Source of the DNA: Variovorax sp. PAMC28562
GTDB taxonomy: Bacteria; Pseudomonadota; Gammaproteobacteria; Burkholderiales; Burkholderiaceae_C
Direction: 5' to 3'
Assembly: GCF_014303735.1 (NCBI RefSeq)
Contig: NZ_CP060296.1
Span: 186,001-250,000 of the forward strand
DNA length: 64,000 nt
This document shows, piece after piece, positions 35,938 to 58,355 of the stretch. Numbering within the stretch: the stretch's first letter is position 1; each line of letters opens with the position of its first letter. The position numbers and the translations under genes were made by a program. The notes below the pieces were generated by a model, which saw nothing but the letters and a program-made list of their open reading frames with translations, was not told the DNA's origin and made no database searches.

Positions 35938-36009
35938 TGCCGCGAATGCAGCCGATACGCCCTCCTCACGTGTCTTCGTCCTCCACCTATGCCTCCACTT
36001 TTTGACGCC

Positions 36010-37551: not shown

Positions 37552-37555
37552 GCCC

Positions 37556-38518
37556 ATGGCAGCAGGTCACGAAGCGAAGCGCGTCCTCGTCGTCAAGTCC
37601 GGCGGCGAAGCAGCGGTAGCCGAATGGCGCAGGCACTTTCAAGCCGTTGCGCCGCATATCGACGTGCACTGGTGGGACGACGCATCGGTGTCGCCGGAGC
37701 GAGTGGACTACGCGCTGGTCTGGGAGCCGGAGCCGGGCCGCCTGGCTGCGATGCCGAATCTGCGGGCGACGCTCAGCAGCGCCGCCGGCGTAGAGCACAT
37801 CACCGCCGACCCCGCCTGGCCCCGCCACTTGCCGCTGCTCCGCGCTGCCACGCCCGAAGCGTCGCAGCGTATGAGTGAGTACGTTTGCATGGCCGTGCTG
37901 GCGTTGCTGCGCGACTTGAAGCGAATGGTGCGGCAGCAGGCCGTGCATCGATGGGACATGTTCACGACGGAGCGCGCCGCGACCGACACCTGCGTCGGCA
38001 TCCTCGGGCTCGGCGCGATGGGCGCGCACACGGCGCAAATGGTGCGGGGGCTGGGCTTCGAGGTGATCGGCTGGTCACGCAGCCGCAAGGCGCTCGACGG
38101 CATCGAATGCCATGCGGGTGACGATGAGCTGCCAGCCTTTTTCGAGCGCTGCGATGTACTGGTTTGCCTGCTGCCGGCGACGCCTGAAACCGAAGGCATC
38201 CTCAGCGCGAAAACGTTCGCCCTGTTGCCCAAAGGTGCGGGCCTGGTCCACGTTGGCCGCGGGTCGCATCTGCGCTACGACGATCTGGCTGCGGCGCTCG
38301 ATGCGTCGCACCTGTGCGGCGCCTTCATCGACGTGTTCGAAGAGGAGCCGTTGCGGTCAGACCATCCAGCCTGGGCACACGACAAGATCTTCGTCACGCC
38401 GCATGTTGGCGCCATGGCTTCACGGCGCGCACGCGCTGTTTTCTTTGCGACGCAGATTGCGAAGTTCGAGCGGGGCGAGACGCCCGATGGGCTGTACGAG
38501 CCGGCCAGGGGTTACTGA
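37556..38518 (+). CDS. D-2-hydroxyacid dehydrogenase family protein (GhrA-like)
   Basis: This 320-aa protein has the Rossmann motif GLGAMGAHTA, a substrate-region RGSHL, the Glu of FEEEPL and catalytic His of TPHVGAMAS. The divergent N-terminal domain (VHWWDDASV) resembles glyoxylate/hydroxypyruvate reductase A. It begins 4 bp after the aldehyde dehydrogenase, so it is probably in the same operon and may reduce a 2-oxo acid end product. Confidence 0.87.
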   Translation: MAAGHEAKRVLVVKSGGEAAVAEWRRHFQAVAPHIDVHWWDDASVSPERVDYALVWEPEPGRLAAMPNLRATLSSAAGVEHITADPAWPRHLPLLRAATPEASQRMSEYVCMAVLALLRDLKRMVRQQAVHRWDMFTTERAATDTCVGILGLGAMGAHTAQMVRGLGFEVIGWSRSRKALDGIECHAGDDELPAFFERCDVLVCLLPATPETEGILSAKTFALLPKGAGLVHVGRGSHLRYDDLAAALDASHLCGAFIDVFEEEPLRSDHPAWAHDKIFVTPHVGAMASRRARAVFFATQIAKFERGETPDGLYEPARGY

Positions 38519-38829
38519 AAAACAGTCCGGCGCCGGTACGCGGCCACGCAGCGCCAGACGAACCAGAGCAGCGTCACGTTCAGGCAGACACCGCCCACCA
38601 CGAAGAAGCCGGCGCGTTCGGCAAAGCCGGGGGCTTGGTCCAGTGTCAACAGCACCAGCGACCACGGCAGGGCGCAAAGAATCGCAGCGCTCAGCAACCA
38701 GCTTTCTTCGTTCGGCGTCAGCAGTGCAGCAACCACCAGCACGCCGGCCAGTGCCGTGACAGTGACGCCGAGAGCCACGGTCAGCCACCAGTTACGACGC
38801 TGCCAAAAGGGTGATTGCGCAAGAACCAT
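38512..38829 (-). CDS. Small multi-pass membrane protein
   Basis: This 105-aa protein has three to four hydrophobic segments (WWLTVALGVTVTALAGVLVV, LLSAAILCALPWSLVLLTL, AGFFVVGGVCLNVTLLWFVW). Its end overlaps the converging GhrA-like gene by 7 bp. No family recognised. Confidence 0.65.
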   Translation of the reverse strand: MVLAQSPFWQRRNWWLTVALGVTVTALAGVLVVAALLTPNEESWLLSAAILCALPWSLVLLTLDQAPGFAERAGFFVVGGVCLNVTLLWFVWRCVAAYRRRTVFQ

Positions 38830-38906
38830 GAACAGAATTCTGCCCCGCGATGCATGCCGTGTCTGCGTAATTTGACACGTCTGGCCGGAGTTGCGTGCAA
38901 GCGTTT

Positions 38907-39857
38907 TCAGGGCACCACAGTTTTGCCGGCAGCCGCATGGGCAACGGCGTTGCCGGGCTGATTCGCCTCTGCGTTTTCGGCGTTCTGCGCGTCTCTTGCT
39001 TCCTTCAGTCGCCGAAGTTCCTGCATCTCCTGCTCGGTGTGCTCCAGCACCGGCTCTGCCACGAAAAAGACGTTGGCGATGTCGGAACTGGTCAAAAACA
39101 GGAAGCTCAGGCCGGCATCCAACTCGGCCGGCGGGATGTCTTGCACGGCGATGGCTTCCATCGAGCCCGCGTCGCCGATCCTGATGTGCCCCTTCTTCGG
39201 GTACCGGAGCACCAGCTGGCTGATCGTTCCGTCGGTCTTGACGAAAAAATCCTCGACCACGCCGGTGTAGATGAGCACGGCTCCGCTCGTATCGCCGGAC
39301 TTGGTCAACACATTGGCCCGGACCCGCTTCGCCTTCTTCGAGCCGCCTGCATGACGCCGCCCCTCGTTGAGCGAATACATCCAGCGATGGCGCGCGAAGC
39401 GCCGCATCGCCCGCAGTTGCATGACCATGCCGGCGGCCAGCCCGAGCAGCGCGCCGGTCACGGTGACGACGAAGAAATACGCCGTGATCTGGACAGCGTT
39501 TTCGTCAACCATCTTGCTGGTGGAAGCGAGCGTGCCGCGAATGGCCGACAACGTCTGCGGCGTGTCGCTCAGCCGGGGCGGCGCCGGCAGGCTGTCGATG
39601 CGCAGCAGCGGAATGAACTCGTCGAGCGCGACACAGCGCGCACCGAGGATTTCAGACCGGCACAGCCAGCCATTGATGGCGATATACCAGCCAGCGTGCA
39701 CGAGAAAGGCCACGCCGACGACGATTGCGAGCTGCCCGAGCGGGCTGATGGGCGTCGCCTCGCGCGTGACCTGGTCGGGCAGATAGAACCCGAAGAAGAA
39801 CGCAAAGCCCGGCAACAGAAGCACGACGACAACGACGGTTGCCCAGGCAAGCGACAT
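38907..39857 (-). CDS. Uncharacterised membrane protein
   Basis: This 316-aa protein has N-terminal membrane segments (WATVVVVVLLLPGFAFFFGF and GQLAIVVGVAFLVHAGWYIA), a third near residue 130 (ITAYFFVVTVTGALLGLAAG), then a soluble domain of about 150 residues (GAVLIYTGVVEDFFVKTDG, GSMEAIAVQDIPPAEL). It ends in a charged Glu/Arg helix and an Ala/Asn-rich tail. I do not recognise the family. Confidence 0.7.
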   Translation of the reverse strand: MSLAWATVVVVVLLLPGFAFFFGFYLPDQVTREATPISPLGQLAIVVGVAFLVHAGWYIAINGWLCRSEILGARCVALDEFIPLLRIDSLPAPPRLSDTPQTLSAIRGTLASTSKMVDENAVQITAYFFVVTVTGALLGLAAGMVMQLRAMRRFARHRWMYSLNEGRRHAGGSKKAKRVRANVLTKSGDTSGAVLIYTGVVEDFFVKTDGTISQLVLRYPKKGHIRIGDAGSMEAIAVQDIPPAELDAGLSFLFLTSSDIANVFFVAEPVLEHTEQEMQELRRLKEARDAQNAENAEANQPGNAVAHAAAGKTVVP

Positions 39858-39922
39858 GAGCGGAGGCGGGGTGCGGAGGCTAAAAAGGAACGGGGCGCGC
39901 GAGCCGGTCGAAAAGCTCGGGG

Positions 39923-40150
39923 CTAGACCGGTGCGACTGCCATCGCGAGCGGCACGTCGAGCACTCGCGAACGGAGTGCTGCCTGGCTTTTGCGCGCTGC
40001 CAGCAATTCGTCGATTTCCTTGATGACCTGTGGCAGCCTCACGCTGTCGCGCCCCGGTCGGGCCATTACCTCGGACACGATCTCGCTGCTGCCGGCGTAG
40101 CCGATCAACAGGTCGAAAACCTCGTCGTCGGTGTCAGTGAGAAATCTCAT
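39923..40150 (-). CDS. Small hypothetical protein
   Basis: This 75-aa protein begins MRFLTDTDDEVFDLLIGYAG and looks helical and soluble (VIKEIDELLAARKSQAALRSR). The ATG at 40150 is preferred to an upstream start at 40210, whose leader is Arg/Cys-rich and non-protein-like. No family recognised. Confidence 0.5.
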   Translation of the reverse strand: MRFLTDTDDEVFDLLIGYAGSSEIVSEVMARPGRDSVRLPQVIKEIDELLAARKSQAALRSRVLDVPLAMAVAPV

Positions 40151-40257
40151 CGAATGCGCTCTCCGGTTCGTACATGCCCGGAATGTAGAGCCTCGGGCGC
40201 ATGAGTTCAAGAGCGCAGTGTGTCAGGCGCTCGGCATCGCCTCATGGACTCAGAGCT

Positions 40258-40413
40258 TCAGAGCTTTTTCTTGACGAAGCCGGCCGCGTTTTCGTCAGCG
40301 CCGGCCTCACCCTCGTCCGAGTGAGGATTCGTCGGATCCTCGTCTGTCGGGAACTCCGGCTGCACGGGGAGCTGCGCCGGATCGTCTTCGGAAGGGACTT
40401 TGGGCATGTTCAT
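40258..40413 (-). CDS. Small acidic hypothetical protein (51 aa)
   Basis: MNMPKVPSEDDPAQLPVQPE is followed by an Asp/Glu/Pro-rich middle and a basic end (FVKKKL). It is probably disordered. AAAGGAG lies about 9 bases before the ATG, and its ATG overlaps the stop of the secreted protein upstream (ATGA). Confidence 0.6.
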   Translation of the reverse strand: MNMPKVPSEDDPAQLPVQPEFPTDEDPTNPHSDEGEAGADENAAGFVKKKL

Positions 40414-40814
40414 TTGAGGGGGCTCCTTTGTTGCGATAGGTCCGACCCAGTCGGCGTGACCGGTGCCTTCGGCGCCACTGGCGCTACAGGCCGTGGGTCG
40501 GTCGAAGCGGGTCCGACGTACTGCTGCGGCGGCGGCTCCGCGCTCGACGCGGCGCCGCACACGCGCTGCACGTCGCGCCAGGCCAGTTCGACGCTGCGCG
40601 GTTCGCGAACCGGCGCGCCGTTGACTGCCTGGTAGTTGCTATTGGCCTGCTCGCAGGACAAGGCGGGCCTTGCCGCTGCCGCTGCTGCTGGCGCGGGTTG
40701 CGCGGTGGCCGGCTGCGCCATCGCGATAGCGAGCAGACCGCCGAGTAGTGAGCCTGGTGCAAAGATGCAGCGCCGATGCTGCCCGGAGATTGAAGAATAA
40801 GGAGAAGAACACAC
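40410..40814 (-). CDS. Small secreted hypothetical protein
   Basis: This 134-aa protein has a signal-like hydrophobic stretch ending ATAQPA, a central segment with two cysteines (LSCEQANSNYQAVNG and LAWRDVQRVCGAAS) and a Pro-rich C-terminus. Start is uncertain since the residues before the hydrophobic stretch are long for a signal peptide. It overlaps the acidic 51-aa gene by 4 bp. Confidence 0.5.
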   Translation of the reverse strand: MCSSPYSSISGQHRRCIFAPGSLLGGLLAIAMAQPATAQPAPAAAAAARPALSCEQANSNYQAVNGAPVREPRSVELAWRDVQRVCGAASSAEPPPQQYVGPASTDPRPVAPVAPKAPVTPTGSDLSQQRSPLK

Positions 40815-40952
40815 AACTCACACGGTAAGCCCGACACCCCAGCAGGCATGTAAGGAGATCGCTTTTCCTCGATGGTGAGTTTTTTTGCCGTTCGCGCCGC
40901 CGGCATCTCGGTAGCATGGCGAGAGATTCCCAACCCGTTGCCGAGCCCGCCC

Positions 40953-41963
40953 ATGTCATCGCCCACCTCCACTGTCGCGCCCACTGCCACCACGGCCACG
41001 GCCGCCCGCTTCAACCAGCCGCTCGGCGGCGACGTCGTGCCACGCTTCGCCGGCATCGCGTCGATGATGCGATTGCCGATTCAGGAAACCAGCGATGGGC
41101 TGGACGCCTGCTTCGTGGGTGTGCCGTTCGATCTTGGCACCTCCAACCGCTCAGGCGCCCGCTTCGGGCCGCGCCAGGTGCGCAGCGAGTCCGTGCTGCT
41201 GCGCCCTTACAACATGGCGACGCGCGCCGCGCCCTTCGACTCGCTGCAAGTGGCCGACATAGGCGACGTGGCGACCAACGCGTACAACATCTTCGATTCG
41301 ATCGAACGCATCGAAACTGCCTACGACCGCATCATCGCCAACGGCTGCCGGCCCATCACCATCGGCGGCGACCACACCATCGCCTGGCCGATCCTGCGCG
41401 CGATGCACAAGAAGTACGGCCCGATCGGCGTGGTGCATGTCGATGCGCATGCCGACGTCAACGACACGATGGGTGGCGAAAAGATCGCGCATGGCACCCC
41501 CTTTCGTCGTGCGGTCGAAGAAGGCCTGCTCGACTGCGACCGCGTGGTGCAGATCGGCCTGCGCGGCACCGGCTACCACGCCGACGATTTCGACTGGTGC
41601 CGCAAACAGGGCTTTCGCGTGGTGCAGGCCGAGGAGTGCTGGCACAAGAGCCTGACGCCGTTGATGAAGGAAGTGAAGGAACGCGTCGCGGGCTTGGCAG
41701 GCCAGGGTCCGGTGTACCTGAGTTTCGACATCGACGGGCTCGACCCCGCCTTCGCACCCGGCACCGGCACGCCGGAGATCGGTGGCCTGAGCGTGCACCA
41801 AGGCATGGAAATCATCCGCGGCCTGCGCGGGTTGAATATCGTCGGTGCCGATCTGGTCGAAATTTCCCCGCCTTACGACCCGCACGGCACGACCGCTTTG
41901 GTCGGTGCCAACCTGGCGTTCGAAATGCTGTGCGTGTTGCCGGGCGTGCAGTATCGGGATTGA
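40953..41963 (+). CDS. Agmatinase/ureohydrolase family protein
   Basis: This 336-aa protein has all binuclear manganese ligands of the arginase fold: H141 (GGDHT), D164/H166/D168 (DAHADVND), D259/D261 (SFDIDGLD), plus PGTGTPE. The N-terminal SNRSGARFGPRQVR is typical of agmatinases, guanidinobutyrases and guanidinopropionases; which guanidine compound it hydrolyses is not determinable here. ATG 40953 was chosen; the upstream frame to 40872 is a poor leader. Directly downstream lies the remnant of an amino-acid binding-protein gene. Confidence 0.9.
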   Translation: MSSPTSTVAPTATTATAARFNQPLGGDVVPRFAGIASMMRLPIQETSDGLDACFVGVPFDLGTSNRSGARFGPRQVRSESVLLRPYNMATRAAPFDSLQVADIGDVATNAYNIFDSIERIETAYDRIIANGCRPITIGGDHTIAWPILRAMHKKYGPIGVVHVDAHADVNDTMGGEKIAHGTPFRRAVEEGLLDCDRVVQIGLRGTGYHADDFDWCRKQGFRVVQAEECWHKSLTPLMKEVKERVAGLAGQGPVYLSFDIDGLDPAFAPGTGTPEIGGLSVHQGMEIIRGLRGLNIVGADLVEISPPYDPHGTTALVGANLAFEMLCVLPGVQYRD

Positions 41964-41995
41964 TGCCGCCCACAACTTCAGGTCGTCAGGTCGTC

Positions 41996-42245
41996 AGGTC
42001 AGCGCTCGACTTCATCGATTACTTGCACTCGGGCGTCCAGTTCTACACACCGGCTTCGACTGCCGACGTGAGCGCGCCGATCGACCTCTGCGGCAAGACC
42101 ATCGGCACCGCCGCAGCACCGCATTTCCGGCGGAGATCAAGACCTGGAGCGACACCAATTGCGTTGCGGCGGTCAAGGCACCGATCACGGTCGAAGGGCC
42201 CTCGCCATCAAGCAAATCGCGATCAACGGCACGCCTGTGCCCTGA
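41996..42245 (+). pseudogene. Remnant of a family-3 amino-acid ABC solute-binding protein gene
   Basis: Three frames in order read like pieces of one binding protein. RSALDFIDYLHSGVQFYTP to PIDLCGKTIGT starts at 41996 and resembles the D-F-x-x-Y, S-G-V and LCGK-x-x-G-T blocks of family-3 receptors. After a shift, FPAEIKTWSDTNCVAAVKAP follows (about 42124-42180). Another shift leads to AIKQIAINGTPVP and a TGA at 42243. This needs frame changes plus internal deletion, with no start codon or signal peptide. It follows the ureohydrolase, so it may once have been its guanidine or amino-acid receptor. Confidence 0.6.
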
Positions 42246-43461: not shown

Positions 43462-43605
43462 GGCACCTCCTGGAAGCGGCGATAAACATATCGATTTCAT
43501 GATGGCGAGGTATAGCGCGCAAGCCTCAGCGCCTGAGTCGGACTATCGCGCGAGTGCGCGCGTACGAGAAACAACACGACGGCAGGCACCGTCATACTCG
43601 CCCAC

Positions 43606-43863
43606 ATGAACGAACCCGTCAGCCTCCGCACAAAAATTCAGTCCATCCGGGATGCTTCCCTGAAAGAGCCACCCTTTCCGTACAGCCAGGTGCCGCCCCA
43701 CTTCGACATCGGTGACGTGGCAAGGCTCACGCACAAACCTGCGGGTGATCAGCGGGTTCGCCAGCAACGCATCGAAGCCTGGGTGCGGGACGTGGATGCG
43801 ACTTGGAAGCGGGTCGCCATCAACCAAGCGGCGGCAGCGAAGGCACCGGGCAAAGTGGACTAG
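43606..43863 (+). CDS. Small hypothetical protein
   Basis: This 85-aa polar protein has no signal peptide. The segments LRTKIQSIRDASLKEPPFPY and RVRQQRIEAWVRDVDATWKR suggest helices. No family recognised. It stands alone between a leftward gene and the response regulator. Confidence 0.5.
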   Translation: MNEPVSLRTKIQSIRDASLKEPPFPYSQVPPHFDIGDVARLTHKPAGDQRVRQQRIEAWVRDVDATWKRVAINQAAAAKAPGKVD

Positions 43864-43930
43864 CGCCACGGTGATCGGCAACCATCCCGGACTCTTATTC
43901 CACGCTCCGCACATGGGTCAATGGCGGTCC

Positions 43931-44605
43931 TTAATCGAGCAAGCCGTGTTTTAAAGCGAAGTAAGTCAGGTCGCTGTTGGTCGACAGCTCGAGCTTTCTC
44001 ACCAATCGCGACCGGTAGAGCGTGACGGTTCTGGCCGAAAGATGAAGCTTCTTTGCGATCACGGCCGGCTTGTCTCCCGCCGCCAGAAGCAGAAGAATCT
44101 GAAACTCCCGTTTGGACAGGCGTTGATGGAGTGGCAGGGCCCCCTCGCACAATTCGCGCGCAAAGTGCTGCGACAGCGTTGCACTCAGGTATCTGCGGCC
44201 GCTGGCGACGCGACGGATCGCAACGATGAGCTGGTCCGGGTCGCAGGATTTGTGAAGGTATCCATGGGCCCCTTCCTCGAGCAGCTTGCGGGCGTACTGC
44301 GCTTCCGGATGGCCACTGAACACCAAAATGGCCATTCCCGGCGCCCTGGACCGAAGCGATCCGATGATGTCGAAGCCGTCCCTTCCGGGCATCGTGAGAT
44401 CCAGCACCAGCACGTCCAGTGTGTTGCGCGTGGCGAGTTCAAGCGCTTCGAAACCATCGGCGGCTTCACCTCCAATGCAGAGATCCGAGTGTTCCAGCAA
44501 CCAGTGCCGAAGTGCAGTTCGCACAACTGGGTGGTCGTCCGCGATGCCGATCCTGATCGGGACGCGGGCGACTGGGTCAGCTGCGGCGCCGAAACTGTCA
44601 TTCAC
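43931..44605 (-). CDS. Response regulator, NarL/FixJ family
   Basis: This 224-aa protein has a receiver domain with acidic pocket D23/D24, phospho-acceptor D69 (VLVLDLTMPGRDG), and K119 (GYLHKS). A C-terminal LuxR HTH follows (LSKREFQILLLLAAGDKPAVIAKKL, SARTVTLYRSRL). No sensor kinase is in the window, so it is an orphan here. It lies at the edge of the DUF6502/zinc-ribbon locus; a link is speculative. Confidence 0.9.
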   Translation of the reverse strand: MNDSFGAAADPVARVPIRIGIADDHPVVRTALRHWLLEHSDLCIGGEAADGFEALELATRNTLDVLVLDLTMPGRDGFDIIGSLRSRAPGMAILVFSGHPEAQYARKLLEEGAHGYLHKSCDPDQLIVAIRRVASGRRYLSATLSQHFARELCEGALPLHQRLSKREFQILLLLAAGDKPAVIAKKLHLSARTVTLYRSRLVRKLELSTNSDLTYFALKHGLLD

Positions 44606-44678
44606 CGCGCATCCCGCCGTGCAAGATTCTCTTGGGGCTAAGCAGACTCGTCATTGCGCGCCGCATGCAGTTCGCATT

Positions 44679-45341
44679 TCAGTTCGCCAGAACCGGATTG
44701 CGGCGCTCTTCGTCGAGACGACGCTGCGCCACCGCTGTCGCGCACTGCATCTGCCGGGCATGGCTCGGCAAAGCACACAGGTTGTTCATGCAGACGGCGC
44801 GCATCAGCACATTGCGACCTGCGCAAAGACCAGATGAGTGTTCGCCACCGGAAGGCCTGTAGGAAGTCAATCTGCGAGAGGCGGCCGGCACGGGAGCCAC
44901 GAGGGGAGCGACATAGCCTTGAGGGCTTCGAGCTTCCACTTTGCCGGGCTCCTGGGCCATAGACACCGGCGCTGCCGACTGAGCCTGCTGCGAGTCGTAG
45001 CTTTGCGACCGGTGGTGCAGCGCGTACCAAACGCAAAACGCGATGAACAGCAGCAACGGCACGATCAGCAAGCGTGCCATTACCCGGACGATCGGCGCCA
45101 ACGGCACGGCGCCCTGCCCTTCATCGCCTGTGCTGGGAGAAGCAGTCGACGACGTTTCGTGAGGCATGTGCACGGTCCCACAAACATCGCACCGCGCCTT
45201 GCGAGAACCTGCTGTTCGACAGAATTCGCACACCTGGATCGGCGACCGATCGCGCAGCCACAGCAGTCCAACGAAATCGGTCGGGGCTATGTAAGCGCGC
45301 AGCGGGTCTGCAAATGCCGGAAAGGGCCACGTGTGTTCCAT
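44679..45341 (-). CDS. Zinc-ribbon membrane protein with C-terminal cysteine motif
   Basis: This 220-aa protein begins MEHTWPFPAFADPLRAYIAP. A four-cysteine zinc ribbon is at IQVCEFCRTAGSRKARCDVC (about 36-56), then an acidic linker, one membrane helix (VMARLLIVPLLLFIAFCVWY) and a C-terminal domain with spaced cysteines (LCAGRNVLMRAVCMNNLC, MQCATAV). Ribbon inside and cysteine domain outside is the likely topology. ATG 45341 was preferred to an upstream start. Function unknown; compare the zinc-ribbon membrane protein at 49547. Confidence 0.7.
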   Translation of the reverse strand: MEHTWPFPAFADPLRAYIAPTDFVGLLWLRDRSPIQVCEFCRTAGSRKARCDVCGTVHMPHETSSTASPSTGDEGQGAVPLAPIVRVMARLLIVPLLLFIAFCVWYALHHRSQSYDSQQAQSAAPVSMAQEPGKVEARSPQGYVAPLVAPVPAASRRLTSYRPSGGEHSSGLCAGRNVLMRAVCMNNLCALPSHARQMQCATAVAQRRLDEERRNPVLAN

Positions 45342-45416
45342 GGAATCACTCGACTCAGGCCGAAAAGATGTCCTGGAACCCCGAACGCCCCGGGACACGC
45401 TTCAGTGCGCAGGCGT

Positions 45417-45659
45417 TCATGACCGGCCGCGCTGATAAAGAGGCCGACTGTCGTCCACTCGACGCTCCGCTTCGAGCTCCCCGATGACGGTCTTGCTCCG
45501 CGCTACCGCTGCCCGTGCTGCAAGGTCAGGCTCAAACGCGGCCAGAGCCAGAAGTTGTTGCGCTGCGTGCACCAGCCGTGCAATCGCGCCCGCTATCGCA
45601 TCCGTCGCGCTGTCCAGTAGTGCGTTCAGATTGGGTCGTTCAAACAGCGCAAGCTTCAT
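45417..45659 (-). CDS. Small Ala-rich hypothetical protein
   Basis: This 80-aa, mostly helical protein (ATDAIAGAIARLVHAAQQLL) has no signal peptide. CGGAGG lies 7 bases before the ATG at 45659, a good ribosome site. Copy 1 of the 17-bp palindrome lies 26-42 bp upstream of its start. No family recognised. Confidence 0.6.
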   Translation of the reverse strand: MKLALFERPNLNALLDSATDAIAGAIARLVHAAQQLLALAAFEPDLAARAAVARSKTVIGELEAERRVDDSRPLYQRGRS

Positions 45660-45684
45660 CGTGGCCTCCGAAGTAAGGTGAGAA

Positions 45685-45701
45685 ATGTGAGGAAGTCACA
45701 T
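45685..45701. promoter_or_regulatory. 17-bp palindrome, copy 1 (ATGTGA-N5-TCACAT)
   Basis: ATGTGA-ggaag-TCACAT. It lies in the AT-rich divergent region between the genes at 45659 and 45847, close to the leftward start. Identical arms and spacing occur at 45789 and 49440. The 5-bp centre differs from the 6-bp centre of CRP sites. Confidence 0.65.
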
Positions 45702-45788
45702 ACTATTGCGATACTTTGGTACTCCATTTGTCAGACATTACGCCGTCGCTTGTAGGTTTTGGGAATTGTTTCAGGCTGATTTACAACA

Positions 45789-45805
45789 ATGTGACAATGT
45801 CACAT
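45789..45805. promoter_or_regulatory. 17-bp palindrome, copy 2 (ATGTGA-N5-TCACAT)
   Basis: ATGTGA-caatg-TCACAT, 42-58 bp upstream of the ATG at 45847. It is nested in a larger imperfect dyad with CAACAA at 45784-45789 and TTGTTG at 45808-45813. Probable operator of the rightward genes. Confidence 0.65.
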
Positions 45806-45846
45806 AATTGTTGGTGAACAACGCTTCTGCTAAATCCGGAGACGCC

Positions 45847-46119
45847 ATGAGGGATGACAGTCTGTCGATGGGCGTTGCCTTTTCACACTGGCAACAACTC
45901 ACCGATGAATATGCGCAATCGCTGCAAGCGCTGGCGCGGGGCGACCGCCATTGCGTCGAGAACCTTGATCGCATCGCGCGTACGCTGCTTCAAAGTCAGG
46001 TCGCGCGCGCACCGAAGTCGGCATTGCCTCCGCCAGATAAGCCGTCAACTCGATGGAGGTGTTGGTGCAACGCGTTCGCATCTCTGTACAGGCTGCCGCG
46101 CGCGGCGGTTCGTCACTGA
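45847..46119 (+). CDS. Small hypothetical protein
   Basis: This 90-aa protein begins MRDDSLSMGVAFSHWQQLTD. The first half is helical (EYAQSLQALARGDRHCVENL); the second half is Arg/Trp/Cys-rich and less protein-like, so the true end or frame may differ. CGGAG precedes the ATG. It is followed 3 bp later by the first DUF6502 gene. Confidence 0.5.
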   Translation: MRDDSLSMGVAFSHWQQLTDEYAQSLQALARGDRHCVENLDRIARTLLQSQVARAPKSALPPPDKPSTRWRCWCNAFASLYRLPRAAVRH

Positions 46120-46122
46120 CAT

Positions 46123-47004
46123 GTGCATGAAGGCACCTTGACCGCCGCCGGCACCCAGGAAGCAGGCGTCGTCGCGCTGGACGCTTGCAGGCGTGTTTTG
46201 CGTCCAGTCATCCGGCTTGCACTTTCGCTTGGTTTGAAGCACTCGCACTTGCAACGCCTGCTCACAGAGCTTCTGCTGGACGAGGGGACGCATCTGTGGC
46301 GCGAACAAGCTGTGGAACCCAACATTAGCCAGCTGTCCGTAACCACCGGACTCAATCGCAAAGCCATCACGCTCAGAGTACGAACGCCTGCCAAGGATGC
46401 CCCGCATACCGAACTGTCGGCGGCGGCCAAGACACTCACACTCTGGGCCCAGCTGCGCGAAGACGATCCCGAACTCCAGTCACTTCCAGTTTCTGCGGAT
46501 GATGGTTCATTGACGTTTGAAGTCATTGCCCGTCGCGCCAGTCGAGGCAACCTGCACCACCGCGCCATTCTTGAAGAACTTATCCGGCTGGATTTGGTAG
46601 CAGTACAAGGCGGCCGGGCGAGCTTGAAGACTTCGAGTTTTGTGCCGCTGGCCGATCTGCGCAGCATGCTTGTCGTGCTCGGAGACAACGCCCACGATCA
46701 TCTGGCAGCGGCCGTCTCGAATGTGCTGCACGACAATCCGCCCATGCTTGAGCGCGCAATCTATGCGCGCGGACTGACGCCTGAGGCCTGCGAGGCGATC
46801 CAACAGTTGGTGCGCACGCGATGGTCTGTGCTTCACCGTGAGCTGGCAGCCACAATGACGCGCGCGGTCGACGCAGACAGCGACGACAAGAGCGCCCGCA
46901 TTCGTGTCGGCATCTATGCGTTCACGGAAAACAGCAGAGAAGATCCAATAGCGAATGCAATCCGGCCCACGAGCCGACAGCTTGGAGCACCCCGCGATGA
47001 ATAA
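46123..47004 (+). CDS. DUF6502 family protein, copy A
   Basis: This 293-aa protein has an N-terminal RVLRPVIRLALSLGLKHSHL segment and an HTH-like stretch (NISQLSVTTGLNRKAITLRV, about 68-87). Then comes LTFEVIARRASRGNLHHRAI, where the paralogue at 48388 is nearly the same, and a long helical C-terminal region. The HTH-like region suggests DNA binding, but no function is established as far as I know. Its stop overlaps the DUF5666 start by 8 bp. The start is uncertain since no good ribosome site is seen. Confidence 0.8.
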   Translation: MHEGTLTAAGTQEAGVVALDACRRVLRPVIRLALSLGLKHSHLQRLLTELLLDEGTHLWREQAVEPNISQLSVTTGLNRKAITLRVRTPAKDAPHTELSAAAKTLTLWAQLREDDPELQSLPVSADDGSLTFEVIARRASRGNLHHRAILEELIRLDLVAVQGGRASLKTSSFVPLADLRSMLVVLGDNAHDHLAAAVSNVLHDNPPMLERAIYARGLTPEACEAIQQLVRTRWSVLHRELAATMTRAVDADSDDKSARIRVGIYAFTENSREDPIANAIRPTSRQLGAPRDE

Positions 47005-48331
47005 AAACATTTGGCAGCCCGTTGTGCTTTTCGCGATAAGCCTTCTCATTGGCTCGTGTGGCGGAGGTGGCAGCGGGGGCTCAGGCGGCATAGGCATTGC
47101 GGGCACTGGCACAGCCGTGAACGTGGGCGGTTCAGGCGCTGCGCAAGGCGATGGCGCGGCAAACGCCGGAGGCGCCTCGTCTTCCGGCGCCGCCGGAGGC
47201 GTTTCTTCCGCTGCCGCAGCCGGTGGCGATGATGGCTCCGGGGTCGGGTCAGGAGGAACAGGCGTGAGCTCTGCGTCGGCCGCGGGCATCGGTTCGACCG
47301 ACGGCTTGGGCAGCGTGATTCTCAATGGCGTGCGCTACAACACCGACAGCGCCGTGTTCAACTTGCAGGATGCGCCAGAGCTGCTGCTCGGCATGAGCGT
47401 CAAGGTCACTGGTCCGGTCAATAGCAACTTCACCGCGGGCACGGCAGCGACGGTCGAGTCGGCTGCCGACTTGCGCGGAACGGTGTCTAACATCGACTTG
47501 GCAAGCAGCACCTTCAGCCTGCTTGGTACCACGGTTTCCACGGACGAGGAGACGGTCTGGGCCGACGCGAGCGGGCTGTCCGGCATTGCGGACGGATCGA
47601 CCTTGCAGGTCTGGGGTTTGCCCGCAGCGCCTGGCATGCTGCGCGCCACGCGTATCGCTCGAGTCGCTTCCGGAGGCGCGCCCATCCTGACGGGCACCGT
47701 GCGAAATCTGGACAAGGTTGCCGGCGTCTTCTCGATCGGCACGTTGAACGTGAACTATGCCAACGCCTTGTTTGTCGGTGGTCTTGATTCAGCAACGCTG
47801 GCGAATGGAACGATCGTCCGGGTTCGCGGGGTCGGATTTGCCAGCGCAGGTGCGCTGAATGCAACCGCCCTCCAATCGTGGTATTCGCTTGCGCAGGCAA
47901 CGGGACAGACGGCGACCCTTGACGGCGTGGTGACCGAATACGCTGGACTGGCGTCCTTGAAGGTACTCGGCGTGCCCGTCGATGCGGGCACAGCGCAGAT
48001 CACCGGCGGGCCGAGTTCGAGCATTGGCAACGGCGTGAAGCTGGAAGTAGCGGGCGTCTTCTCCGCCGGCATGCTGCGGGCGACGAAGGTGAAGATCCGG
48101 CACATTTCCGGCACCGGCGGCCCGTCCTCATTCGCACTCATTGGCACGGTAGGCGGGTTCACCAGCGCGGCGGACTTCAAGGTCCGCGGACAGCCCATCA
48201 ATGCAAGCGGTCAAAACGTGCTGTTCCAAAACGGCATCGTCGGAAACCTCGGCAACGGCGTCAAGGTGACGGTGACCGGCTCACAGGTTCTGAACGGCGT
48301 TCTTCTTGCGAACACGGTGACTTTCAACTGA
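46997..48331 (+). CDS. DUF5666 domain lipoprotein
   Basis: This 444-aa protein has a lipoprotein signal (NKNIWQPVVLFAISLLIGSC; lipobox LIGSC), then about 75 residues of Gly/Ser/Ala linker. Four to five OB-like repeats follow, each of the form L-x-G-x-V with a later F-x-x-x-G (for example LRGTVSNIDLASSTFSLLG, LTGTVRNLDKVAGVFSIG, LIGTVGGFTSAADFKVRG). This is the DUF5666 pattern. It is surface or periplasm anchored, function unknown. Overlap with the DUF6502 gene implies translational coupling. Confidence 0.85.
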   Translation: MNKNIWQPVVLFAISLLIGSCGGGGSGGSGGIGIAGTGTAVNVGGSGAAQGDGAANAGGASSSGAAGGVSSAAAAGGDDGSGVGSGGTGVSSASAAGIGSTDGLGSVILNGVRYNTDSAVFNLQDAPELLLGMSVKVTGPVNSNFTAGTAATVESAADLRGTVSNIDLASSTFSLLGTTVSTDEETVWADASGLSGIADGSTLQVWGLPAAPGMLRATRIARVASGGAPILTGTVRNLDKVAGVFSIGTLNVNYANALFVGGLDSATLANGTIVRVRGVGFASAGALNATALQSWYSLAQATGQTATLDGVVTEYAGLASLKVLGVPVDAGTAQITGGPSSSIGNGVKLEVAGVFSAGMLRATKVKIRHISGTGGPSSFALIGTVGGFTSAADFKVRGQPINASGQNVLFQNGIVGNLGNGVKVTVTGSQVLNGVLLANTVTFN

Positions 48332-48387
48332 GCAATTCGGGATGAACCAGCGGCAAGCCGCCGGTCATGGCGCACGCGCCTGCGATC

Positions 48388-49209
48388 TCAGTCGGTCGCG
48401 GCAGGTTTCGCCGCTGCTGCAGCGCGCTCTTCGTGATAGGCATAGACGCCCACGCGAATCCGAGCACCGCCATGGCCTTCGGCCGCATCGACGGCCTTTG
48501 TCATCAGCCCGGCAAGTTCGTGATGCAAAGCGTCCCATCGCAGTCGCGCCAGTTGCTGGATCGCACCGCAATCGTCGAGCGTGAGGCCGCCAGCGAAAAC
48601 CGACCGCTCCAGCATCTGGGGCGCCCGACCAAACGTGTTCGACACGCCGGCGAGCAGATGATCCCGTGCGTTGTCGCCGAGGAACGCCAGCATGGATCGC
48701 ACATCGTCGGCGGGCACGAAGCCAGCGACTGCCAACGTGGCGCGGCCATCCTTTTCCTCGACCATATGCAGTCGCGTCAACTCGTCAAGCACGGCGCGAT
48801 GATGGTGGTTCCCGCGGCTCGAGCGTCGGGCCAACATCTCGAAGCTGAGCAGCGGCTCCGCGGCAGTGACCGGGAGTGTTTTGAGATCGGGCAACGTGCT
48901 TACGAGCTCAAGCCACGCCGTCAAGGTCTTGGAGGCGGCTGACATGTCGGTGTGCGGCAGTGCGTCCGTTGGTGCTCTGACCTTGAGCGTGACCGCCTTG
49001 CGATTGAGTCCGGTGGTGATCGACAACTGGCTGATGTTGGGTTCGACTCCTTTTTCACGCCAGGATGTCCGTGCCTCCTCAAGCAGCAGATCGCGCACCA
49101 ACTCTTCGAGGTCACGATGCTTGACCCCCATATTCAGGGCAAGGCGGATCAAGGGACGCATGACGCGCGCGCAGACCGAAAGCGCCCAGCCTAAGCGTTC
49201 ATCAATCAA
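48388..49209 (-). CDS. DUF6502 family protein, copy B
   Basis: This protein of about 273 aa is parallel to copy A along its length: VMRPLIRLALNMGVKHRDLE, EPNISQLSITTGLNRKAVTL (HTH-like), LARRSSRGNHHHRAVLDEL and GARIRVGVYAYHEE. It converges on the DUF5666 gene, with 56 bp between stops. The start is a TTG: at 49209 with GAGGAAA just upstream, or at 49251 with a longer N-terminus. Like copy A, possibly a DNA-binding regulator. Confidence 0.78.
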   Translation of the reverse strand: MIDERLGWALSVCARVMRPLIRLALNMGVKHRDLEELVRDLLLEEARTSWREKGVEPNISQLSITTGLNRKAVTLKVRAPTDALPHTDMSAASKTLTAWLELVSTLPDLKTLPVTAAEPLLSFEMLARRSSRGNHHHRAVLDELTRLHMVEEKDGRATLAVAGFVPADDVRSMLAFLGDNARDHLLAGVSNTFGRAPQMLERSVFAGGLTLDDCGAIQQLARLRWDALHHELAGLMTKAVDAAEGHGGARIRVGVYAYHEERAAAAAKPAATD

Positions 49210-49546
49210 CGGTTTCCTCAACGAGCGATCGCAGGACGCGAAAGCGAACAATTCTCATACGCGAGGACTTTATGCGATTTCTGCGCAATCGTTAAGGTCC
49301 GGTTCAGCAATCACCGCAGCCAGCAGCAGAAGTTCGGCCCAACGTAGCGGGACAAATCGGCTCAGACAGTCTCTGGACAGAAGAATGCGGTGCCGTCCCA
49401 CATCCGCCCTGAGCACAAGGAATTTAGGCTTGGCCCGACATGTGAATTTTTCACATGAACGTTTTGAGGATGCAATTGATGGCCTTATTCGCTGGACAGA
49501 AAGTCGTGTGCTCCACAGAGATGATCAAAGCACGCGAGGTCGACGA
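49210..49546. other. 337-bp divergent intergenic region
   Basis: No convincing gene is seen between DUF6502 copy B and the zinc-ribbon gene. A frame crossing it has no ribosome site and poor composition. The region holds the third 17-bp palindrome at 49440 and AT-rich promoter-like sequence around it. Confidence 0.5.
49440..49456. promoter_or_regulatory. 17-bp palindrome, copy 3 (ATGTGA-N5-TCACAT)
   Basis: ATGTGA-atttt-TCACAT, with one more flanking C/G pair giving 7-bp arms. It lies 91 bp upstream of the zinc-ribbon gene at 49547 and about 230 bp upstream of DUF6502 copy B. Confidence 0.65.
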
Positions 49547-49867
49547 ATGAATACCGTTGCAATTCCAGAGCCTTCGACGGCTCTCAAGCCGCTGGTTGAG
49601 TGCCGGTTTTGCGGCAAGCAAAACGCAATCGACTCAACGCATTGCAGAGGATGCGGCAACGAGTTCGCCGAGGTAACGGTCAGCGACACCAGCAAGGGGC
49701 AGCGAATCCAAAATTTCAGCGCCTGGCAGCAAGTCAGCGCGCGACCCATAACCGCAGCCAATACCGAACCACCACGCGCTCGCTGGCTGTATTGGATCGG
49801 CGGCGTCGCGGTGGCTTCGTTGTGCATCGCGGTGCTGGCTTTTCTTTTGTACCGACTGCCTGTCTAG
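49547..49867 (+). CDS. Zinc-ribbon membrane protein (106 aa)
   Basis: The N-terminal four-cysteine ribbon VECRFCGKQNAIDSTHCRGC (about 19-38) is followed by a polar linker and one C-terminal helix (WLYWIGGVAVASLCIAVLAF). The ribbon is cytoplasmic if the helix anchors the C-terminus. The ribbon-plus-helix plan is shared with the protein at 44679 on the other side of the locus. Function unknown. Confidence 0.7.
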   Translation: MNTVAIPEPSTALKPLVECRFCGKQNAIDSTHCRGCGNEFAEVTVSDTSKGQRIQNFSAWQQVSARPITAANTEPPRARWLYWIGGVAVASLCIAVLAFLLYRLPV

Positions 49868-49998
49868 CTTTGCGACCGCGCTGCGCCCTCACGGTACCAA
49901 CCAACTACCCAAGACGCCGCCACAAATGAAGAATCGAGAGTTCGAATCTGTATTCCACACATGCGCTGCGAAAACAAGAAGAAGTAAGGGAGGCGTTG

Positions 49999-50166
49999 GT
50001 GAAAGTGGATAACGACGACTTCTGGAAGCGACCTTCTCAGCTTGAAGACCTCGAAGCCACGCGGCGTGAGACCGAGCAGCTGCACTCACGCGCATGGCGA
50101 CGTAACGTCGCAGCATTGCTGTTGATCGTGGTGTTGCTGGGTGTCGTTTGGCTGCTGCGCCGATGA
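49999..50166 (+). CDS. Small single-pass membrane protein (55 aa)
   Basis: The GTG start at 49999 follows AGGGAGG. The protein is a polar, Glu/Arg-rich N-terminal helix (KRPSQLEDLEATRRETEQLH) and a C-terminal hydrophobic helix (NVAALLLIVVLLGVVWLL) ending RR. It is about 130 bp downstream of the zinc-ribbon gene. Confidence 0.6.
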   Translation: MKVDNDDFWKRPSQLEDLEATRRETEQLHSRAWRRNVAALLLIVVLLGVVWLLRR

Positions 50167-50303
50167 ACGCAATACGACACGACAGCCTGCAACGAGCTCC
50201 TTTGCAGGCCTTGCTGCTCAGAAAACCGATCATGATGACGATCAAAGCTGTCTGCGAGCAGATCGAAGACTTCCAGGAAGTCGGCGAGCTCCTTTCCGGA
50301 TGA
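50163..50303 (+). CDS. Very small hypothetical protein (46 aa)
   Basis: The ATG overlaps the stop of the preceding membrane gene (ATGA). The sequence includes PIMMTIKAVCEQIEDFQEVG. There is no independent support beyond coupling and codon pattern. Confidence 0.3.
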   Translation: MNAIRHDSLQRAPLQALLLRKPIMMTIKAVCEQIEDFQEVGELLSG

Positions 50304-50353
50304 CTGTTTCATCACCACTGTCATCGATTTTCCATCCCTTCAAAGGAATCACC

Positions 50354-50779
50354 ATGCGCCTCAAAGCGGTCTTGTTCTGTCTGGCATTCAGCACTGTGTC
50401 TTCAGCAGCACTGTCACAGGTCTCGGTCCAGATCAATGTCCCGGGCATCGTACAGATCGCTCCACCGCCGCCCCGGTATGAGCCGGTTCCACGCGCGGCG
50501 CCGGGCCGGATTTGGATGCCTGGCAGATGGGCATGGAACGAGCGTGAATATGTCTGGCGCGCAGGCCAATGGCAAAGTGCACGACCTGACTACGTGTATG
50601 CACCGGGTCGCTGGGTGGCAAGAGACGGAGGCTGGCGCTGGTCAGAAGACCAGTGGCGCCGTCGGCCTGACGACAGGCGCGGGCGTGAGGAGGGCGATGA
50701 ACGTCGGTCGGGGGACGACGAGCAACACGGTGGCGGCTACCACTGTCCGCCGGGCCAGGCCAAGAAGGGGCGTTGCTGA
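50354..50779 (+). CDS. Secreted WxxGxW-repeat protein
   Basis: This 141-aa protein has a Sec signal peptide (MRLKAVLFCLAFSTVSSAAL), a Pro/Val stretch, and three aromatic repeats WMPGRW, WRAGQW and YAPGRW. These are spaced about 20 residues apart as in the YXWQ/BcpO-like repeat proteins. A highly charged Arg/Asp tail ends HCPPGQAKKGRC. AAAGGA precedes the ATG at 50354. Envelope location is likely; function unknown. Confidence 0.75.
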   Translation: MRLKAVLFCLAFSTVSSAALSQVSVQINVPGIVQIAPPPPRYEPVPRAAPGRIWMPGRWAWNEREYVWRAGQWQSARPDYVYAPGRWVARDGGWRWSEDQWRRRPDDRRGREEGDERRSGDDEQHGGGYHCPPGQAKKGRC

Positions 50780-50892
50780 AGCGACACCGCCAGTGACGGG
50801 TGGACTGTTTGGCGCCAGACAGCGATAGCGCAAGCGACGACGCGGGCCTTAGGAACCTGGCTTCCTTTGGAAGCCCGTGTTTATGGGCTGAC

Positions 50893-50980
50893 TGGCGGAG
50901 AGTGTGAGATTCGAACTCACGGACGCTTTCACGTCGGCAGTTTTCAAGACTGCTGGTTTAAACCACTCACCCAACTCTCC
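50893..50980 (-). tRNA. tRNA-Ser(UGA)
   Basis: This 88-nt tRNA has an acceptor stem GGAGAGT/ACTCTCC, discriminator G and encoded CCA, the anticodon loop CTTGAAA with TGA, a long variable arm and a GTTCGAATC T-loop. The long arm and UGA anticodon identify serine. Confidence 0.95.
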
Positions 50981-51017
50981 GCAGACGTCCGGCGTTGCAC
51001 CGGGTAGGTGGCCGATT

Positions 51018-56462: not shown

Positions 56463-57380
56463 ATGCCAGTTTACAGCATGACCGGCTATGCCAGCGGCCA
56501 AAACGGCCCGGTTGGCAGCCAATCCGAGGCCGATCCGCGGCCCCCTGCGACCGGCCGACTCGGAGTCGAAATCCGATCGGTCAACAGCCGCTTTCTCGAC
56601 CTGACTTTCAAGCTGCCGGAAGAACTGCGCCAGCACGAACCCGCGTTGCGCGACCTGATCATCGGCCGGCTCAAGCGCGGCAAAGTCGAGGTGCGAGCAT
56701 CGATAGAAAGCACTGCGCAAGCGGGCGTGACCGAGCCTTCGGTCAAGTTGCTGCAACGCCTGAACGGCGTGCAGGACGGCATCAAGGCCTGGCTCCCCGG
56801 CGCACGCGACCTGAGTGTGGCCGACGTGCTGCGCCTGGCTGGCGGCGACGGTGCCGCAGTACGCGGCGACTGGGCTGCCGACCTGTCAGAAGTCACGAGC
56901 AAGGCGCTCGACGCGCTGATGTCCGCGCGGCAACGCGAAGGCACCCGACTGGCCAAGATGCTGGAGGAGCATCTCGGCCAATTGCGCGTGTTGGCAAAGC
57001 AAGCTGTTCCGCTGGTGCCGAAGCTCGTCGAACAGCAGCGCGCCAAATTTCTGGAGCGCTGGCAAGATGCCATGGGCCTTACCGGCGGCACCTTGCCGGA
57101 GGCTGCGCAAGACCGTGCGCTGACCGAAGCAACCGCTTTTGCCATCCGCATCGACGTGGCCGAAGAACTGACCCGACTCAATTCGCACCTCGACGAGATC
57201 GAGCGTCTGGTCAAAAAAGGCGGAGAAATCGGCAAACGGCTCGACTTTTTGATTCAGGAACTGCATCGCGAGGCCAACACGTTGGGTGCGAAATCGGCAG
57301 CGCTCGAACTCACTCGCATCGGCGTCGACATGAAAGTGTTGATCGAACAGATGCGCGAGCAGGTGCAAAACATCGAATGA
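56463..57380 (+). CDS. yicC: YicC family endoribonuclease
   Basis: This 305-aa protein begins [13 protein letters not shown]. The N-terminal YicC domain has [20 protein letters not shown]; the C-terminal DUF1732 domain has [15 protein letters not shown] and [22 protein letters not shown]. The family acts in RNA turnover in E. coli. The ATG at 56463 is chosen because the family begins here. Its stop overlaps the gmk start. Confidence 0.93.
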
Positions 57381-58012
57381 GTGGCGAGCGTATGGACTAT
57401 CCCGGCAACATTTTCGTGGTCGCGGCGCCGAGCGGCGCCGGCAAATCGAGTCTGGTGAAGGCGTTGATGGAGCTCGATTCGGCGGTGCAGCCATCGGTCT
57501 CGCATACGACACGGCCTCCGCGAGGCCAGGAAAAGCACGGGCGCGAGTACTTCTTTGCGTCGCATCCCGAATTCGACGCAATGGTCGCATCTGATGCTTT
57601 CGTCGAGTGGGCGCACGTGCATGGTCAGCGCTACGGGACCTCGAAACGCGCCATCGAAGAGCGCATCGCCCAAGGCGCGGACGTCATCCTGGAAATCGAC
57701 TTTCAGGGCGCGATCCAGATTCGCAAGACGTTTGCGAACGCGGTCATGATCTTTATCTTGCCACCCAGTTGGGAAGAGTTGCGGTCGCGCCTGGAGCGGC
57801 GCGGCGAAGACAGCGCGTCGGTTATCGAGCTGCGCCTGCAGAACGCAGCCGACGAGATGGCGCGTGCCAATGAATTCGACTTCGTTATAATCAACGAGTT
57901 ATTTGAGCGTGCGCTTTTTGACCTGAAAGCCATTGTTCACGCACAACGGCTTCGTTATTCCGCACAGCGCCGAGCCCGTGCCGAAACCTTCGCAGCGCTC
58001 AATATTCCCTGA
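57377..58012 (+). CDS. gmk: Guanylate kinase
   Basis: This 211-aa kinase converts GMP to GDP. It has P-loop [36 protein letters not shown] and [15 protein letters not shown]. The ATG overlaps the yicC stop; an internal ATG five codons later is possible. rpoZ follows 46 bp downstream. Confidence 0.95.
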
Positions 58013-58058
58013 TTCAGCTACCTGTTAGCTACCCTAGTTAACCGACCGAAAGATCCTC

Positions 58059-58262
58059 ATGGCCCGCATCACCGTCGAAGATTGCCTGTTGCAAATCCCG
58101 AACCGCTTTCAACTCGTGCTCGCCGCGACCTACCGCGCCCGCATGCTGAGCCAGGGCCATGCACCCAAGATTGAAAGCAAGAACAAGCCTTGCGTGACCG
58201 CACTGCGCGAGATTGCAGAAGGCAAAATCGGCATTGAAATGCTCAAGAAGGTTCCGGGCTGA
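58059..58262 (+). CDS. rpoZ: DNA-directed RNA polymerase subunit omega
   Basis: This 67-aa protein begins [20 protein letters not shown] with AATYRARML, the standard omega sequence. It aids RNA polymerase assembly. A strong terminator follows, then spoT; the gmk-rpoZ-spoT order is conserved. Confidence 0.96.
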
Positions 58263-58286
58263 GTTGACTCGCAACTCCGCACAAAG

Positions 58287-58311
58287 AAGCACCGCGCGCG
58301 GTGCTTTTTTT
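58287..58311 (+). terminator. Rho-independent terminator after rpoZ
   Basis: AAGCACCGCG directly followed by its complement CGCGGTGCTT and a T run (TTTTTTT overall). It would end or attenuate rpoZ transcription before spoT. Confidence 0.85.
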
Positions 58312-58355
58312 GTGTCCGATCGCATCCTTGCAACGTGCACGCTAAAGTGGGGTTC

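Follow-up and report, generated by a model that had tools for sequence, protein, structure and literature searches.

DUF6502 proteins as predicted autoregulatory transcription factors with a palindromic operator and a DUF5666 lipoprotein partner

What does a locus do in which two DUF6502 genes, here called copies A and B, converge on a single DUF5666 gene? The locus lies in a 64,000-nt stretch of the genome of Variovorax sp. PAMC28562 (4,693,528 bases). We refer to this whole stretch as the window, and coordinates without a prefix are positions in it. To our knowledge, no function has been assigned to the DUF6502 family and none is known for DUF5666. Leftward of the convergent genes lie an 80-amino-acid gene and a gene for a transmembrane (TM) protein with a cysteine ribbon, and rightward a second ribbon-TM gene and a 55-amino-acid gene. 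The best reading of the data below is that the DUF6502 proteins form an undescribed family of one-component DNA-binding transcription factors that regulate their own genes, with DUF5666 as the co-transcribed partner. We consider it highly probable that DUF6502 binds a 17-bp palindrome and controls, besides its own operon and DUF5666, surface genes both nearby and distant. The co-occurrence, the position and the specificity of the palindrome were observed, and from these we infer direct binding by DUF6502.

The palindrome, ATGTGA-N5-TCACAT, is found at three sites in the window: two precede A, and the third lies in the gap that separates B from ribbon gene 2. An earlier note, made from the letters of this DNA alone, had described identical palindromes in both divergent promoter regions. 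The 6-bp arms ATGTGA/TCACAT are indeed identical, the 5-bp centres differ, and there are three sites, two of them upstream of A. The core TGTGA-N5-TCACA is thus present three times in the window, compared to 0.03 expected, and none of 100 shuffles reaches three. The whole genome contains four such cores, three of them at the locus, and the control read backwards gives one; when one mismatch is allowed in the 17-mer there are seven sites in the genome and none for the reversed control. The fourth genomic site, G000:C1:3429419-3429435 (L115:9419-9435), is the single exact operator outside the window. It is followed after 23 nt by an open reading frame (ORF) of 619 amino acids, for which no Pfam match was found; the encoded protein has a single TM segment, a stretch containing Cys and a C-terminus very rich in Gly and Ala. 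In a sister species, the Variovorax metagenome-assembled genome 339R (L036, on the same contig as L140), the same Gly-rich gene has a site at equal distance.

The site also follows the gene across genomes. The samples comprised 101 Variovorax genomes, 299 genomes of the wider family and 349 genomes from across the phylum. Our own DUF6502 profile matches 74 of the 101 Variovorax genomes, and 40 of these contain the exact word ATGTGAANNNTTCACAT. The word is absent from all 27 DUF6502-negative genomes (seven of the 27 by subtraction), and its reversed control from all 101; the Fisher p-value for this co-occurrence, ignoring relatedness, is 7.9e-8. The DUF6502-negative genomes are not simply free of pili, as PilW matches are present in 26 of the 27. 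Physically, of 59 exact sites 36 are located no more than 10 kb from a DUF6502 gene (37 when 16 low-scoring or second-piece rows are added), and the random expectation is about 0.4% for each site. In the wider family, the exact site is found in four of the 299 genomes, three of which are DUF6502-positive. DUF6502 itself is found in 116 of the 299 family genomes with our own profile and in 15 of the 349 phylum genomes with the stricter Pfam profile.

The association between the two genes was examined in 175 DUF6502 genes that could be read nearly in full. They comprise the genes of 79 named loci (not counting the incomplete L111 and L114), a second L036 gene, 90 family-level genes, the genes of five genus loci, and A and B of the window. 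The named loci come from 86 confirmed stretches, of which the best 80 were kept; these represent 79 distinct loci, mostly from Variovorax. For 150 of the 175 genes, a DUF5666 gene follows in the same orientation at a distance of at most 900 nt (68 of 85 in the Variovorax-centred subset, 82 of 90 at the family level), which bears out the conserved neighbourhood that the earlier note had proposed to look for. In the window, the DUF5666 ATG at 46997 falls within the final eight bases of A (46997-47004), the 8-bp overlap already described there.

Both copies are full-length members of DUF6502 (PF20112), matching profile positions 7-265 of 268 (A) and 3-264 (B) above the curated cut-off of 27 bits, and no other PF20112 match at E <= 0.001 exists in the genome. 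The two paralogues and the gene between them, which passes the same cut-off for DUF5666 (PF18914), are in line with the first description of the locus. The clade of A and B, recognised by the segment TTGLNRK, is remote from the best-matching family members (36-61 bits, compared to 277 for L003). The two proteins share 54% identity and stand apart on the gene tree, so a recent tandem duplication was rejected. The DUF5666 protein is a predicted bacterial lipoprotein: its N-terminus, MNKNIWQPVVLFAISLLIGSC, has a hydrophobic segment and a lipobox, LIGSC, called by eye, and the lipobox residue Cys21 is invariant across an alignment of 29 sequences. Profile searches against solved structures gave no match for DUF5666, and for DUF6502 only spurious matches to myosin light chains (best E 0.019). 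No mention of DUF6502 or PF20112 was found in the open-access library searched, which covers few subscription papers and no preprints. In the available parts of PMC10714799 and PMC12455991, DUF5666 appears as a bare entry in a gene list.

In other clades the palindrome changes its bases and keeps its form. The pattern was generalised to ATGNGN after the family-level loci had been viewed, so the counts are not blind; the phylum loci were fetched later, and the wider form NTG[GT]GN used for them was chosen after a first look at these loci. The spacer was fixed at five in the search pattern after a spacer test on 31 loci. Perfect ATGNGN palindromes are found upstream of 26 of the 85 Variovorax-centred genes (shuffled mean 0.04) and of 24 of the 90 family-level genes (0.07 in shuffled sequences; three of the 90 are from Variovorax, window copy B included). 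The phylum sample of 17 loci, reduced to 15 by removing two repeats of family-level loci, has a palindrome at eight of the 15 genes, compared to 0.017 in shuffled sequences. Thirteen of the 15 lie outside the family and seven of these have a palindrome, three of the seven coming from one genus. Across all clades, a perfect palindrome is found for 61 of 190 genes, with a shuffled mean of 0.27 and a maximum of 2. A scan over spacers for perfect 6-bp arms in the 420 nt before the gene shows a maximum at spacer 5 (79 of the 175 genes, compared to 28.2 shuffled). Spacers 1, 3 and 7 are also raised (63, 78 and 67, compared to about 31 shuffled), which we interpret as the same palindrome read in a nested or shifted register. 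As a control, an upstream length of 420 nt was searched at 915 other genes of the named loci and gave 17 palindromes, 14 of which we read as the same operators viewed from the divergent gene.

The base changes go with the helix class of the protein. Proteins of helix class NRK have ATGTGA (25) or ATGGGA (3), those of class RRE have NTGTGC (17), ATGGGC (1) or ATGTGT (1), those of class HRK/HRR have NTGGGA (11) or TTGGGT (1), and two NRRA proteins have ATGTGA. In another count, of 61 sites, base 6 is C (20) or T (2) with RRE, and A in 38 of 39 with RK or RRA. The operator class tracks the gene tree with 10 changes, where the minimum is 8 and the shuffled mean 30.3.

Several observations weigh against our reading or narrow it. 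Since the operator is inherited with the gene, cis inheritance alone could make the two trees agree; the agreement is by itself no proof, and it is the unlinked sites and the phyletic pattern that carry weight. When the helix is masked, a quick tree shows only two to three switches of operator bases and one to two of helix class. With one to three switches and a non-significant test of independent pairs, we claim no residue-to-base code. In the 420 nt before the profile match, an operator-like site is present for 78 of the 175 genes and was not found for the other 97, partly because the operator heads a longer operon; it is 6-8 kb away in one architecture, 2-4 kb in another, and was not found in some loci. 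Clear overlap with a promoter is seen in a minority of non-redundant loci (NRK 4 of 14, RRE up to 4 of 17, HRK 0 of 10). At the phylum level DUF5666 is present in nine of the 17 loci and was not found in the other eight with a profile trained on Variovorax. One family genome, G266, has the exact site and no listed DUF6502 match. Finally, all matches of DUF6502 to Pfam helix-turn-helix (HTH) families are sub-threshold (Xre-like-HTH with E 0.0043, wHTH-PRTase_assc, KfrA_N).

The sign of the regulation was considered from the promoters. Consensus matching found two promoter-like sites in the region examined, where 1.2 are expected, and the best promoter match in the window has operator 2 within its spacer and across its -10 element. 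Because of this position, and because some operators elsewhere overlap a -35 element, a -10 element or the spacer between them, we tentatively favour repression by DUF6502. Alternatively, DUF6502 could be an activator that sits around -38 and recruits RNA polymerase at the DUF5666, pilus and ribbon promoters. This would fit several Variovorax promoters in which the right arm TTCACA takes the -35 place, 17-18 bp from TATAGT. However, operator 2 and the operators of a few RRE loci, in the spacer or over the -10, are in the position of a repressor, and activators usually sit upstream of the -35. We regard activation as rather unlikely.

A second alternative is that a different regulator, such as one of the CRP/FNR kind, binds the palindrome, and that the DUF6502 genes are merely among its targets. 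The half-sites TGTGA/TCACA are like those of CRP, and the sites are in promoter regions, as they would be for any regulator. However, the CRP/FNR word is TGTGA-N6-TCACA, and when spacers of 4 to 7 were allowed in the 31 loci, 13 TGTGA/TCACA sites had a spacer of 5 and one a spacer of 6. CRP/FNR proteins are expected in all Variovorax genomes, yet the site is absent from every DUF6502-negative one, and the operator bases vary between DUF6502 clades across the phylum, where GGGA or TGTGC half-sites are used. In addition, no cNMP-binding or HTH_Crp match was found at E <= 1 among the 42 A2 DUF6502 members scanned. Ownership of the site by CRP/FNR was rejected from the spacer and the phyletic pattern, and we consider a foreign regulator improbable. 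DUF6502 rather resembles one-component HTH regulators such as TetR, GntR and MarR in having a palindromic operator at its own promoter, a small regulon and divergent targets, and it differs from them in having no above-cut-off Pfam match of this kind and a lipoprotein partner gene in most loci.

It is extremely unlikely that the locus arose by chance synteny of two conserved DUF genes that are unrelated, with a palindrome that is itself accidental: the double arrangement is found in only two genomes and the two window ribbon genes have no significant BLAST similarity to each other, but the pairing of DUF6502 with DUF5666, the excess of palindromes in the window, the ratio of nonsynonymous to synonymous substitution rates (dN/dS) of 0.07-0.25 in the eight block genes with a sister match, the phyletic distribution of the site and the palindromes at the phylum level all contradict it.

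What the predicted regulator would control can be read from the genes next to its operator. Among the named loci, DUF5666 is present in 64 of 79 and the ribbon-TM protein family in 24 of 79; since the gene caller fragments some genes, for example in the region of ribbon protein 1, such neighbour counts are approximate. Three architectures recur. In the first (24 loci) a ribbon gene and DUF6502 lie close together, as a rule divergently across the operator, with an exact site in the neighbourhood of 10 of the 24 and a site with at most one mismatch in 18; this is the co-occurrence with ribbon-helix genes that the earlier note had anticipated. In the second (19 loci) DUF6502 lies with a minor-pilin operon (exact site in 14, at most one mismatch in 16). 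Most of these loci consist of the operator, a ComP-type pilin, PilV, PilW, PilX, PilY1 and a GspH/FimT-type pilin, followed by DUF6502-DUF5666; the pilin operon is divergent in L062 and L096. In the third (11 loci) the order is DUF6502-DUF5666, site, a small unknown protein, site, and a histidine kinase with a LuxR-type response regulator. These loci adjoin Tad-pilus genes and have an exact site in 10 of 11 and at most one mismatch in all 11. L045 combines the second and third architectures, and the other 24 named loci, including that of the sister, fall outside the classes (10 with an exact site, 12 with at most one mismatch).

The minor-pilin operon adjoins DUF6502 in 20 of the 79 named loci (the 19 and L045), and in 17 of these 20 a site with at most one mismatch, exact in 14, stands just 5' of the first pilin gene. 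The open-access library searched held no paper on type IV pili and minor pilins of Variovorax. The first pilin of this operon (L037:3587-3937 and relatives) matches ComP_DUS, a DNA uptake sequence receptor, with 64.3 bits, a hint of a connection with DNA uptake in these Variovorax.

The locus in the window has no pilus genes; it consists of two units like the first architecture, tail to tail and sharing one DUF5666. The quasi-symmetry that the earlier note had emphasised does not generalise, as the double form, two DUF6502 genes within about 2.3 kb, is listed in only two of the 101 Variovorax genomes, the window host and one sister species.

In the first count, 23 of the 59 exact sites were unlinked to DUF6502, and 20 of these stretches, the host's own among them, were examined (G054:C21, G071:C78 and G019:C40 were left out). 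Several classes of gene recur beside them. The site lies just before a pilE-like gene of a minor-pilin operon in two genomes (L124, L137), beside the small (c13) protein family of the third architecture in four (L121, L122, L123, L126), beside a second unknown small-protein family in five (L128, L129, L130, L134, L138), beside a JmjC/cupin-like protein in L125 and L133, and beside a ribbon or c22 gene in L135 and L136. The last two lie near contig ends and are probably cut-off DUF6502 loci. The Gly-rich gene is common to the unlinked site of the host and L131. For L127, L132 and L139 no shared gene was found beside the site. In another genus (G103) the site precedes a DUF4382 protein. DUF4382 proteins were seen beside the operator or DUF6502-DUF5666 in three loci (L178:1545-2798, L108:1759-2811, L092:4638-4868). 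The exact operator of G266 (G266:C45:35860-35876, L180) lies near a DUF485 gene. In L055 an acyl-carrier-like protein (L055:6173-6463), about 3.9 kb before the DUF6502 gene, has the exact-arm site ATGTGAACTTTTCACAT upstream and is possibly a further target.

Taken as a mechanism, each DUF6502 protein would recognise a 17-bp palindrome NTG[T/G]G[A/C]-N5-[T/G]C[A/C]CAN (ATGTGA-N5-TCACAT in this clade) and would bind the promoter of its own operon, whose second gene encodes the DUF5666 lipoprotein, as well as divergent or unlinked operons of surface proteins. A specific palindromic operator at the own promoter is what would be expected of a transcription factor, and it lends support to the DNA-binding role that had been proposed from an HTH-like segment of DUF6502. 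In the window, A may act on operators 1 and 2 and B on operator 3, or both proteins on all sites; the targets would be DUF6502-DUF5666, the ribbon-TM genes and the distant Gly-rich TM protein. DUF5666 may be an output, a partner or both, and the metal or envelope cue that the earlier note suggested for the system is an unsupported guess. A bolder version would have DUF5666 as an envelope-side partner that tells a DUF6502 repressor when to release, that is, a new envelope feedback switch which has been added repeatedly to surface operons, including those of pili and of DNA-uptake pilins, in a cassette spread through Pseudomonadota with TGTGA, TGTGC and GGGA dialects. This we consider unlikely as a whole.

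The predicted circuit turns two Pfam families without known function into a testable unit of regulator, 17-bp operator, partner lipoprotein and predicted regulon. Given the spread of DUF6502, a single binding assay would help to annotate a large number of genes. In Variovorax and its relatives, ComP-type minor-pilin operons and a two-component pair next to Tad genes carry the operator, which points to surface attachment and possibly DNA uptake, and the pairing of three operator classes with three helix classes makes the family suitable for studying the joint change of regulator and operator.

The features of the locus are listed in Table 1.

Table 1. Genes, operators and promoter of the DUF6502 locus in window coordinates, with the basis of each assignment.
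Feature	Position	Strand	Basis
Ribbon protein 1	44679..45341	-	CxxC...CxxC, one TM helix, C-terminal part with Cys; listed ORF reaches 45398
Small conserved gene, 80 amino acids	45417..45659	-	68% identity in sister, dN/dS 0.12
Operator 1, ATGTGAGGAAGTCACAT	45685..45701	.	Palindrome search of window and genome
Sigma-70-like promoter TTTACA-17-CATAAT, straddling operator 2	45780..45808	+	10/12 consensus matches
Operator 2, ATGTGACAATGTCACAT	45789..45805	.	Palindrome search of window and genome
DUF6502 copy A, predicted DNA-binding regulator	46123..47004	+	PF20112 36.3 bits; dN/dS 0.07 vs sister
DUF5666 lipoprotein (predicted)	46997..48331	+	PF18914 78.4 bits, cut-off 27, in two stretches
DUF6502 copy B, predicted DNA-binding regulator	48388..49251	-	PF20112 61.0 bits; dN/dS 0.10
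Operator 3, ATGTGAATTTTTCACAT	49440..49456	.	In divergent region between B and ribbon protein 2
Ribbon protein 2 (CRFC...CRGC, C-terminal TM helix)	49547..49867	+	60% identity in sister, dN/dS 0.18
Small single-TM protein, 55 amino acids	49999..50166	+	78% identity in sister, dN/dS 0.17

The block is conserved in the sister species, where the proteins A and B are 87% and DUF5666 is 76% identical, and the dN/dS values indicate purifying selection. Ribbon protein 1 is 57% identical to its sister counterpart (dN/dS 0.25). Its start is probably at 45341, close to the point where conservation with the sister sets in. The small genes of the original description stood in part: 45417-45659, for which no Pfam family was matched, and 49999-50166 are conserved, whereas for the ORFs 45847-46119 and ~50163-50303 no sister counterpart was found at E <= 1e-3, and both are probably not genes.

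Both flanking membrane proteins have the four cysteines and the single predicted helix first ascribed to them: two CxxC knuckles are kept between window and sister, and each protein has one strongly hydrophobic stretch (Kyte-Doolittle peak of 2.48 in ribbon protein 1). Against the Pfam Zn_ribbon families, ribbon protein 2 is below the cut-off (Zn_ribbon_3, 15.4 bits compared to 27) and ribbon protein 1 has no match. Their similarity to the Variovorax ribbon cluster is weak, with an hhalign P-value of 1.2e-4 and a probability of 55% for ribbon protein 2, and 0.0075 and 5% for ribbon protein 1.

Beside ribbon gene 1, window 43931-44605 (-) encodes a response regulator with a LuxR-type output (PF00072, PF00196); a LuxR-type response regulator near the operator is also seen in loci of the third architecture. 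On the other side, the 55-amino-acid TM gene adjoins a WXXGXW-repeat protein (PF12779, 37.3 bits; 50354-50779, +) with 80% identity to the sister and a dN/dS of 0.08, with no window operator at its start. A tRNA-Ser(tga) gene (50893-50980, -) lies immediately outside the block. The G+C content is 0.59-0.63 at 43500-51000 and 0.64-0.68 at 36000-42000, and it is equally low (0.59-0.62) at 57000-60000; it is possible that the block was gained horizontally.

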